DNA of 35,554 nucleotides from a virus. Within the stretch, counting starts at the first letter, position 1. Every line of letters starts with the position of its first letter. Below are positions 1,968 through 5,055 of the stretch, one piece after another. The notes below the pieces were generated by a model. That model was not told the DNA's origin, did no database searches, and was given only the letters and a program-made list of their open reading frames with translations. Where the stretch lies: positions 1 to 35,554 of the IMG/VR virus record IMGVR_UViG_3300013093_000129; one strand, written 5' to 3'. The position numbers were made by a program, and so were the translations under genes.

Positions 1968-3527
1968 TTATTGATATTGTTTATCGAGCAAAGGAGCATT
2001 AGTCTTTGCTGGTTCTTCTGTAATAGTATAAGTTGTACCACCTGAATATACATTGGTATTATTATTTTGTTGTACTACTGCAGCTGGTGCACCTGAATTA
2101 CCTCTCTTAGGTAGTTTATTTGGAATGTCTACACCTTTGGAAGGAACAGCTGCAACTGCAGGAACTCCAGATGCATGTGGAGATCCCAATCCTTGTTTAT
2201 TTAATCTTTTTTCTAATATTCCTTCAAACTCAGATGCCTTAATTGTTGCAAGTTCTGCATTTGTTTTGCCACTAACAGGATCAGGAAGACCAGCGGCAAC
2301 TAATGCTTGCTCTACCGTCATATTAGTATTTCTTCTTTCATAAACAGCAGCTGCACCACCTGCACCAAGATAGTGTGCCATATATTCATAACCTGGCGTA
2401 ACAGGTACACCCTTTTGTTTCAATGCAGAAACATCTTGTTGATGTAACCTATTATAAAGTTTGTCTTGAATCTCAGGAGTAAATTTGGTTGTTTTCATAT
2501 CCAAACCAGCCTGCTGTACGAGTCCTGGATGAAAAACTCCTTTTTTATCTTTTTGGCCAAATAATGTTGAATTCATAAACTGATACTTACCCATTGCACT
2601 GGTATTTTTAGAGTTTCTATTTCTTTCTTTACCTAATGCATCAACTTCTTCTAAAGTTAAATCAGTTAATTGTTTTCCATATTTTTGTTCTGGACTCAAA
2701 TTACTACCCCTTACAAGGTTTCCTTTTTTGTCTAAAGAATCACCAAATGTGATATTATAATTTCCACCAGATTCAGCACCACCAATAGCAGAAGTCATTC
2801 CAACTGCCGCAGCTGTGCCTACCGCAGCAGTAATAACTTTTTTAGTTACACTACTGGTGGACGGTGCAGTAGATGGTGCTCGTTCTGCTGTAGGCGTTTC
2901 GGTTTTTGTTTCTTCTGTTGGTTTTTTACTAGGTTCTTTTTTCTTTTCGGTCGTTTTAGGTTTTTCTTCTTTAATTTTTTTTGTTGGACCTTTTTTACCT
3001 GAAAACAATTTTATCAGTTCATCCGATCTCAATTCTTTTGTTTCAATTTGTTTTTGTCTAAACTTTTTGGTTTCTTCGAAGGCTTCATTATTTTCATCAT
3101 AATTTTTTACCATCAAATGAAATATTTTGGTTAGAATGTCTGATGATGAATCTCCCGATTTTAAAGGAGTATCAGTGGTTGGTGAAACTGAACTAAGTTC
3201 AGGATCTTTTTTTACTTCGACTTTTTCTTTTTTTTCTGATGTAGAAACGGTGGTTTCAGATGGTGTTTCAGATGGTTTGTTTTTGGAAGTTTTATCACCA
3301 AAAGTATTTGAAATGAGTTTAGAAAACAACGGCATCATTATCATTTCTTGATAACCAGGAGAACTGGCCAATTCCATGGCCATTTTCTCCAATCGTTCAT
3401 CACTCAAATCTTTGGCTGTTTGTTTTACTTTAGACATTTGTTGTGGGGTTAAATCGGCACCACCATCCATAAGGATTAAACTAAGTTCACCTTTTTTGAT
3501 TAATTCTTTGAATGTCTTATTATCCAT
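1968..3527 (-). CDS. Virion-associated peptidoglycan hydrolase (lysozyme/transglycosylase-like domain)
   Basis: A 519-aa protein. Residues 1-75 are a helical N-terminus. Residues 80-125 are a Ser/Thr/Lys linker. Residues 125-175 are a charged helix (SSDILTKIFHLMVKN) similar to one in the downstream 507-aa protein. Residues 178-225 are Lys/Glu/Pro/Thr-rich. Residues 228-248 are an Ala/Val-rich hydrophobic stretch. Residues 249-440 look like the lysozyme/soluble lytic transglycosylase fold: GGAESGGNY, with E252 the likely catalytic acid, then SAMGKYQFM (310-318), and AHYLGAGGAAAVY (384-396). The likely role is local cell-wall cutting during tail penetration. In T4 that job belongs to the lysozyme domain of gp5, which is missing from the gp5-like genes in this window. 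The start ATG (3527) directly follows the stop of the gp51-like frame (3530-3528), suggesting translational coupling. Confidence 0.72.
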   Translation of the reverse strand: MDNKTFKELIKKGELSLILMDGGADLTPQQMSKVKQTAKDLSDERLEKMAMELASSPGYQEMIMMPLFSKLISNTFGDKTSKNKPSETPSETTVSTSEKKEKVEVKKDPELSSVSPTTDTPLKSGDSSSDILTKIFHLMVKNYDENNEAFEETKKFRQKQIETKELRSDELIKLFSGKKGPTKKIKEEKPKTTEKKKEPSKKPTEETKTETPTAERAPSTAPSTSSVTKKVITAAVGTAAAVGMTSAIGGAESGGNYNITFGDSLDKKGNLVRGSNLSPEQKYGKQLTDLTLEEVDALGKERNRNSKNTSAMGKYQFMNSTLFGQKDKKGVFHPGLVQQAGLDMKTTKFTPEIQDKLYNRLHQQDVSALKQKGVPVTPGYEYMAHYLGAGGAAAVYERRNTNMTVEQALVAAGLPDPVSGKTNAELATIKASEFEGILEKRLNKQGLGSPHASGVPAVAAVPSKGVDIPNKLPKRGNSGAPAAVVQQNNNTNVYSGGTTYTITEEPAKTNAPLLDKQYQ

Positions 3528-3725
3528 CTATCGTCTTTGTGCAGCCTGTTGTTGTTTAATCTTTTCGTTTTCTTCTTCAATATACTGAATCAACATAGCG
3601 ACATAGATATCTCTCTCCCACGGTATCATATTTTCAAGTTCCGTAAGAGAATACTTATGGTGTTGCATCAAAGAGAAATTAGTTTTATAATAATTTCTCA
3701 GGTTGTCATAACAAAATATTACCCG
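3528..3725 (-). CDS. gp51: gp51-like hub assembly segment, read as a -1 frameshift extension of gp26
   Basis: This 65-codon frame is open from CGG at 3725-3723 to TAG at 3530-3528. It has no start codon near its beginning. The first in-frame ATG is codon 20 (3668-3666) and has no Shine-Dalgarno. The frame is exactly the one reached by a -1 shift at the slippery T TTT TTC in the last codons of gp26, giving a fusion of about 305 aa. Its sequence (HHKYSLTELENMIPWERDIY then a Glu/Lys/Gln-rich helix) has the look I associate with small tail or hub assembly factors of T4-like phages, where gene 51 follows gene 26. T4 gp51 is a hub assembly factor. The next gene starts immediately after its stop. 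The alternative is a short 46-aa protein from the internal ATG. Confidence 0.68.
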   Translation of the reverse strand, partial: RVIFCYDNLRNYYKTNFSLMQHHKYSLTELENMIPWERDIYVAMLIQYIEEENEKIKQQQAAQRR

Positions 3726-4444
3726 AAAAAACTTTCGAGACCTTCCATGTTTATCACATGGTCAAAACCGCATTTACCACATTTCATCTTCATCTGTCTT
3801 TTCATAACAGGAAGATGGTTAAAGAATTCTTCTAATTTACTAAATTGTTCTTGGTTTAAAGATTCAATAAATTGCATCAATTCTTCTTTAGGTGTTTCTT
3901 TTGCATAATAGTATTGTTCACCATCAAAAATCCATTCAATACTTTGCACAACAACTTCAAATGCAATATCAACAGCTGAATCTTTCTTACTTAACTTATC
4001 CACCAAAGAAAATTCTGGATATTTCATTTTGATACTAATTGTATCATTTATTTTAACTGTATCTTTTATGTTGGGATCAAAATCAACACTAACATCTAAA
4101 AGGTTTAATGTACCTTTCATTTTACCACCACATTGTTTACCATCTACTTCATTGGTACATATGTAATCATTTTCCACCACTTCACCAACAGACCTTGCAC
4201 GAAGGTTAAGGAAATAAAATTCGACATCAATGACTGGCAGAGTATCTACATCTAATCCTTCAGTTATTGTACAATTGGTAAGTACTTGCCTAACATTTTG
4301 TTCAATCGTCAGTCTATCATCAGATTCCAATGCCATCATCAAATTCTTTTGTTCTTTAACTAAAAAAGGACGAAATCTAATGTGTTTTTTAGATAATGGT
4401 AAATCTAATTCAAATACTGGTGAATCAATTTTTGGTAATGCCAT
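3719..4444 (-). CDS. gp26: Baseplate hub assembly protein gp26
   Basis: A 241-aa protein matching the T4 gp26-type baseplate family (T4 gp26 is about 208 aa). Typical parts are the N-terminal MALPKIDSPVFELDLP and RFRPFLVKEQKNLMMALES, then the region around VIDVEFYFLNLRARSVGE (71-88). Cys 96, 105, 222 and 225 (the last two as CGKCGF) could form a zinc site; that is an inference. In T4, gp26 works with gp51 in forming the central hub. ATG 4444 is well supported: an AGGAG Shine-Dalgarno (plus-strand CTCCT, 4452-4456) sits 7 bases upstream. The gene lies 26 bases after the gp54-like gene and ends at the frameshift site described separately. Confidence 0.82.
   Translation of the reverse strand: MALPKIDSPVFELDLPLSKKHIRFRPFLVKEQKNLMMALESDDRLTIEQNVRQVLTNCTITEGLDVDTLPVIDVEFYFLNLRARSVGEVVENDYICTNEVDGKQCGGKMKGTLNLLDVSVDFDPNIKDTVKINDTISIKMKYPEFSLVDKLSKKDSAVDIAFEVVVQSIEWIFDGEQYYYAKETPKEELMQFIESLNQEQFSKLEEFFNHLPVMKRQMKMKCGKCGFDHVINMEGLESFFG
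3725..3731 (-). promoter_or_regulatory. Candidate programmed -1 ribosomal frameshift site (T TTT TTC) at end of gp26
   Basis: On the coding strand the zero frame reads AGT TTT TTC GGG TAA. The heptamer T TTT TTC fits the X XXY YYZ slippery pattern in the correct phase, two codons before the gp26 stop. After slippage the next codons (CGG GTA ATA) open the 65-codon gp51-like frame. Downstream pairing is weak (only a 4-bp TTGT/ACAA hairpin), so efficiency cannot be guessed. Confidence 0.65.
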
Positions 4445-4470: not shown

Positions 4471-5055
4471 TTAAAGTGAACTAATCAATCCAGAAAGGCC
4501 AGAAGTAATAAGGTTCTGACCAAGGTTATTAACTGTATTATTGCTCCATTGTTTGTATGCAAATACAACTGCCAATTTATGATGCCCATCCGTTGACCAG
4601 TCCAAATCTAATTGGTTAACATCAATTGGAAATGCTTCTTGTAACAAACCAGCATAAGTTAAATTATTTGATACATCATATTGATTAATGGTAATATCTA
4701 CAGCATAATTTGATTTATATTGAAAATTAAAATTTGATGTTGGATTCATTAACTCCATCCAAGCATCAAAGAAAATCTTTTCATTCATATCATCGGATAG
4801 AATAAATGTTAATGTAGCTTCTTGATAAGTCGTATGTATAGGAAACTTCTCAATTGGAGCTGAACCCAATTTTTTATCTACAGTCTGAAATGCTCTACCA
4901 GGCAATACAGCAGTATCACAACGCAAAGATAAGTTTCTTGCATTTGTGATATATTGTGCCAAGGCAACAGGAATAGGAATAGTGACATCGAACCTATTCG
5001 ATCTGGCTACGTCCGTTGAGAAACTTGCAATGAAGTCGTTAATACTGCCGGCCAT
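4471..5055 (-). CDS. gp54: Tail tube-like protein, probable baseplate tail tube initiator gp54
   Basis: A 194-aa member of the T4 tail-tube family (gp19/gp48/gp54). Supporting features are DVARSNRFDVTIP at the N-terminus, CDTAVLPGRAFQTVD, the strand-rich TYQEATLTFILSDD, FFDAWMELMNP, then LDLDWSTDGHHKLAVVFAYKQW. The start (INDFIASFSTD) and the C-terminal extension (ITSGLSGLISSL) resemble the ends of T4 gp54 better than those of gp19. T4 gp54 is much longer (about 320 aa), so this would be a compact version. gp54 sits on the hub and gp48 and nucleates the tail tube. ATG 5055 directly abuts the stop of the 199-aa gene (5058-5056), a coupled arrangement. The alternative is the major tail tube protein gp19. 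Confidence 0.68.
   Translation of the reverse strand: MAGSINDFIASFSTDVARSNRFDVTIPIPVALAQYITNARNLSLRCDTAVLPGRAFQTVDKKLGSAPIEKFPIHTTYQEATLTFILSDDMNEKIFFDAWMELMNPTSNFNFQYKSNYAVDITINQYDVSNNLTYAGLLQEAFPIDVNQLDLDWSTDGHHKLAVVFAYKQWSNNTVNNLGQNLITSGLSGLISSL

Follow-up and report, generated by a model that had tools for sequence, protein, structure and literature searches.

Results

Organization of the locus

The window (the whole stretch of DNA analyzed, from an uncultured T4-like phage; 35,554 nt, IMG/VR record IMGVR_UViG_3300013093_000129) carries on its minus strand a gene of the T4 gp26/gp51 family, placed between a tail-tube-family gene and a long open reading frame. The features considered are listed in the direction of transcription.

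4471..5055, minus strand: tail-tube-family protein, directly upstream of gp26 (phrog_45 tail tube, 1e-33)
3719..4444, minus strand: gp26 (TAC-N, short form), 241 aa (PF12322 T4_baseplate, 1.1e-54; phrog_150 baseplate hub, 2.7e-59)
3741..3746, minus strand: Shine-Dalgarno (SD)-like GGAAGG, probable internal stimulator (peak of anti-SD pairing; GAG and GGR codons over-used)
3725..3731, minus strand: slippery heptamer T TTT TTC (X XXY YYZ phase), separated from the 0-frame stop by a single codon (from the sequence)
3719..3721, minus strand: 0-frame stop TAA of gp26 (from the sequence)
3528..3725, minus strand: predicted -1 frame extension (TAC-C, "gp51-like"), 65 codons plus TAG stop (phrog_634, 2.2e-30; pN/pS 0.09-0.15, in this frame only)
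1968..3527, minus strand: next gene, 519 aa, in tape-measure position (open reading frame; ATG immediately after the extension stop)

The 3′-end of gp26 reads AGT TTT TTC GGG TAA on the minus strand, with T3731, TTT (3730-3728), and TTC (3727-3725) forming the heptamer in 0-frame phase. When C3725 is read twice, the -1 frame continues as RVIFCYDNLRNYYKTNFSLMQHHKYSLTELENMIPWERDIY... for 65 codons to the stop TAG at 3530-3528, and the ATG of the next gene starts directly after it, at 3527. A slippery sequence in the right phase and a -1 frame open for 65 codons up to the base before the next gene had both been described in an earlier sequence-only reading, and both were confirmed. The predicted fusion is 305 aa long (240 + 65). 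The first start-like codons of the extension frame are TTG 3671 and ATG 3668, neither with an SD sequence. The profile match of gp26 to PF12322 (the T4 gp26/gp51 family) scored 185.9 bits against a curated cut-off of 24.5. The -1 segment alone matched phrog_634 (baseplate hub assembly catalyst, 2.2e-30, PHROG profile search) and also the C-terminal part of phrog_150; therefore, the earlier gp26/gp51 annotation stands.

Conservation of the heptamer

Relatives were taken from IMG/VR (80 close, 80 Melnitz-like, 18 Ackermannviridae-like, and 2 Cr30-like) and from annotated phages; a search with SRB7757 gp26 as query gave no loci, and one with Cr30 gp26 gave two. The junction was readable at 184 homologous loci. 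T TTT TTN was in phase at 163 of them, 0 or 1 codon ahead of the stop, and the 21 loci without it were T2, Vibrio K475, and 19 of Ackermannviridae type. With the Ackermannviridae-like and T4-type groups left out, the in-phase heptamer was present in all 131 distinct gp26 genes, so that heptamer and phase, which the sequence-only reading had proposed to check in relatives, were kept. Relatedness among the phages makes these counts non-independent, although the groups share only 27-37% gp26 identity with the window. The 131 genes come from freshwater relatives, cyanophages, KVP40-like phages, pf16, Cr30, Mendera, and SRB7757 phages. The annotated phages with the heptamer and gp26 identities in that range were S-PM2, P-RSM6, P-RSM4, phi-pp2, Cr30, pf16, Melnitz-2, SRB7757, and Mendera, and AsFcp_4 showed the same in-phase arrangement.

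The codon ahead of the heptamer varied in amino acid (AGT, AAT, TCT, GAT, or GCT), T always being its last letter. The final heptamer codon was TTC, TTT, TTA, or TTG, each of which is compatible with tandem slippage; U UUU UUA is the HIV-1 slippery site (PMC4373837). Of 150 FF pairs elsewhere in the same genes, only 3 were encoded as T TTT TTY; T6 stood in phase at 20 of 30,110 codon positions. The combination of heptamer and open -1 frame is far beyond chance.

Selection on the -1 frame

The -1 frame was free of stops in 56 of 56 distinct 50-codon sequences, and the other two frames averaged 4.7 and 6.6 stops. Among the 56 distinct extensions, pN/pS in the -1 frame was 0.089 from the gp26 stop up to the first in-frame start codon and 0.148 beyond it; the other frames gave about 1.0-1.1. 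The segment upstream of any start is under purifying selection and therefore appears to be translated as protein in the -1 frame; translation ahead of any start in turn favors frameshifting over separate initiation. In the window clade, ATG and GTG were absent from the first 15 extension codons in 62 of 63 distinct genes, no separate gp51 start with a ribosome site was conserved, and the ATG at 3668 was replaced by ATA or GTG in 6 of the 56 distinct extensions. The earlier statements that the extension looks conserved and lacks a usable start or SD sequence held up. Cyanophages, unlike the window clade, have ATG or GTG within the first 15 extension codons, and it is because of this early in-frame start that a stand-alone gp51 is annotated in them.

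Candidate stimulatory elements

The SD-like element, consensus GARGG, lies 9 nt ahead of the heptamer in the window. The 8-mers that paired most strongly with the anti-SD began 15-16 nt ahead of the heptamer and averaged -6.9 and -6.7 kcal/mol; the gene background was +0.13 kcal/mol (130 genes). At the median, the junction peak ranked within the top 1%. Although GARGG partly follows from a conserved Glu-Gly and the genes compared share ancestry, Glu at this site was written GAG in 58 of 121 cases vs. 606 of 3023 elsewhere, and Gly was written GGA or GGG in 86 of 130 vs. 243 of 846 elsewhere. The SD-like element therefore exceeds a by-product of the conserved dipeptide. One relative (L067) had an in-frame TAG in place of the usual GAG at the SD-like site, eight codons ahead of the gp26 stop; this is probably a sequencing error or a SNP.

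A downstream stimulatory hairpin was considered and rejected as a conserved element: the window alone gave z = -2.8, but the alignment of 19 relatives showed no conserved RNA structure downstream of the heptamer (-0.3 kcal/mol, no covariation).

Relation to T4-type gp26 and gp51

T2 gp51 (249 aa) matched PF12322 (4.3e-55), phrog_634 (8.2e-24), and also phrog_150. The 305-aa fusion aligned with T2 gp51 over residues 4-248, junction included (hhalign E = 1.1e-17), and the gp26 part aligned with T2 gp26 (5.1e-17); the alignment of gp51 with gp26 was weaker (3.9e-7). In T2, the two genes are divergently oriented neighbors without a frameshift. From the end-to-end alignment of the fusion with T2 gp51, T4 gp51 is the counterpart of the frameshift product, encoded by a gene of its own. 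T4-type phages thus have the short and long forms as two genes. Judged by these alignments, T4 gp51 is a whole gp26 paralog with the extension fused in frame, not the C-terminal piece alone. The sequence-only reading was thus right that T4-type phages have separate genes 26 and 51, as found in T2, but not in equating gp51 with the extension. Its prediction of gp26 plus a minor gp26-gp51 fusion of approximately 305 aa is supported by the conserved heptamer and phase and by the lack of a conserved separate start.

Ackermannviridae-type gp26 genes (L177-L194, L091) conserved the -1 extension without the heptamer and carried an invariant GAR ATT TTC ATY TAA; some of their junctions read TAATG, and most had no in-frame ATG at that place. 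Cr30 (L089, position 3202) and Mendera (L094, position 3232) had a T TTT TTY heptamer plus a TGATG stop-start overlap, and are possible intermediates between frameshift and re-initiation.

Neighboring genes and predicted fold

Tail-tube homologs were found at the same place in four relatives (L085, L088, L089, and L195). The gene order was tail tube, gp26, and extension, and Cr30 has a gene annotated as tape measure just downstream. The 519-aa gene of the window had no Pfam match and no convincing PHROG match; its C-terminal half is apparently lysozyme/transglycosylase-like (by eye), and it diverges fast between close relatives. It may be a candidate tape measure or tail lysin.

The predicted structure of gp26 had a pLDDT of 88. 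Over residues 1-88, the model matched 2ob9, a tail assembly chaperone of HK97 (Z = 7.3), YqbN 3klu (Z = 7.3), 3fgx (Z = 8.0), and 5ir0 (Z = 5.4), with all matches at Z of 8 at most and covering approximately 90 residues; the remaining chains had Z of 2.6 and below. We take YqbN and 3fgx to be chaperone relatives. A Foldseek search with the model returned non-significant E-values, and a PDB sequence search gave nothing useful. The model is suggestive of a tail assembly chaperone-like fold of the gp26 N-domain. Position, the pair of products, and, weakly, the predicted fold point to a tail assembly chaperone of the G/GT type.

Discussion

The comparative data make it very probable that this one gene makes a short and a long tail assembly chaperone through a -1 slip on T TTT TTC. 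Most ribosomes would terminate at the gp26 stop and yield the 241-aa short form. A minority would be paused by the SD-like GGAAGG approximately 9 nt upstream, with the stop codon one codon ahead, and would slip back one base on the heptamer, both Phe tRNAs re-pairing; these ribosomes would read 65 further codons and produce the 305-aa fusion of short form and extension. If the pair works as lambda gpG/gpGT does, the tape-measure protein may be coated by the short form and the tail-tube protein recruited through the extension. The conserved heptamer and phase, the selection on the -1 frame ahead of any start, and the full-length homology of the fusion to T4-type gp51 are direct results; from them and from the other comparisons we infer the occurrence of slippage, its level, the role of the SD-like element, and the chaperone function.

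The extension might instead be a separate small gene, started by re-initiation in or after the gp26 stop or from TTG 3671 or ATG 3668. The stand-alone gp51 annotated in S-PM2, P-RSM6, and others, the TGATG overlaps of Cr30 and Mendera, and the 47-aa ORF available from TTG 3671 all agree with this. However, nearly all window-clade genes lack an early ATG or GTG and yet show strong purifying selection over these codons, ATG 3668 is incompletely conserved, the phrog_634 and gp51 homology starts exactly at the slip site, and a separate gene leaves the invariant heptamer unexplained. We consider such a gene very unlikely, and an independent start at 3668 or 3671 was rejected on the conservation evidence.

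RNA polymerase might instead slip on the T run, so that the frame would shift at transcription and not on the ribosome; this fits a run that is never absent and reaches 8 Ts in 17 Melnitz-type genes. A run of 6 Ts is short for polymerase slippage, though, and exactly 6 were found in 63 of 63 window-clade and 18 of 18 S-PM2-like genes; codon phase and the SD-like element suit ribosomal slippage, and we give the transcriptional route a slighter chance still. That the open -1 frame arose by chance, or that a sequencing error split one gp26-gp51 gene, has a practically negligible probability: T4-type gp51 is indeed an in-frame fusion, but 163 of the 184 contigs and isolates show the identical split, which refutes this explanation. 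Ribosomal frameshifting is thus the preferred reading.

The lambda slippery site is G GGA AAG, and the window has T TTT TTC. Like lambda gpG/gpGT, the window pair would involve a -1 slip shortly before the short gene ends and a minor fusion product, and its gene may likewise lie between tail tube and tape measure; it differs in belonging to another protein family (PF12322) and in having its stop one codon past the slip site. In lambda, the tape measure is bound by gpG and gpGT, which also bring in tail tube subunits (PMC5009743). The -1 frameshift of E. coli dnaX has an internal SD upstream of its slippery heptamer (PMC5600365), as the SD-like sequence precedes the heptamer in the window, but the relatives of the window had no conserved downstream hairpin. 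T4 gp26 and gp51 are both PF12322 members like the window pair, and the window fusion aligns along the whole of gp51; T2, as a T4-type phage, differs in its two divergent genes and absence of a frameshift. A T4 review counted gp26 and gp51 among the hub assembly chaperones, with gp51 missing from the particle (PMC3004832), and a 2016 review still made an exception of T4 (PMC5009743).

The sequence-only reading had proposed that the G/GT logic extends to the T4-type hub, which is supported in essence but had been published before. Vladimirov, Gautam & Davidson (2022, Virology 566:9-15) reportedly named genes 26 and 51 and found frameshifting conserved in several T4-like groups. The PRFect paper, citing that work, states that certain T4-like phages do not frameshift but have two chaperone genes, a short one and a longer, fused one (PMC10885494). 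Another paper refers to it on the slippery sequences of poly-T type found in the TAC-N genes of T4-like phages (PMC12846349). No direct literature match for a gp26/gp51 frameshift was found, the prior work being represented here by such citing papers. The likeness to the window extends, as far as these citations describe it, to the short and long forms, the frameshift in several groups, and the separate genes of T4. Because T4-like chaperone frameshifting was published in 2022, the finding is not new in kind, and the window phage is, by its sequence, a further example of a known arrangement.

Tentatively, and with more doubt than confidence, we suggest an ancestral T4-type chaperone gene with an SD-stimulated T TTT TTN slip and no downstream RNA structure. 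Descendants would have replaced this slip several times: by a stop-start overlap (Cr30 and Mendera being intermediates that still have the heptamer), by a non-canonical route (Ackermannviridae), and by a duplication that gave separate genes (T4).

These results correct how a core pair of T4-like genes is annotated, and the stand-alone "gp51" of many cyanophage records is very probably the mere tail end of a frameshift product. The freshwater clade offers dozens of natural variants of a minimal bacterial -1 site. T4 gp26 and gp51 have long been known as hub assembly catalysts, and their reading as short and long tail assembly chaperones gains support.
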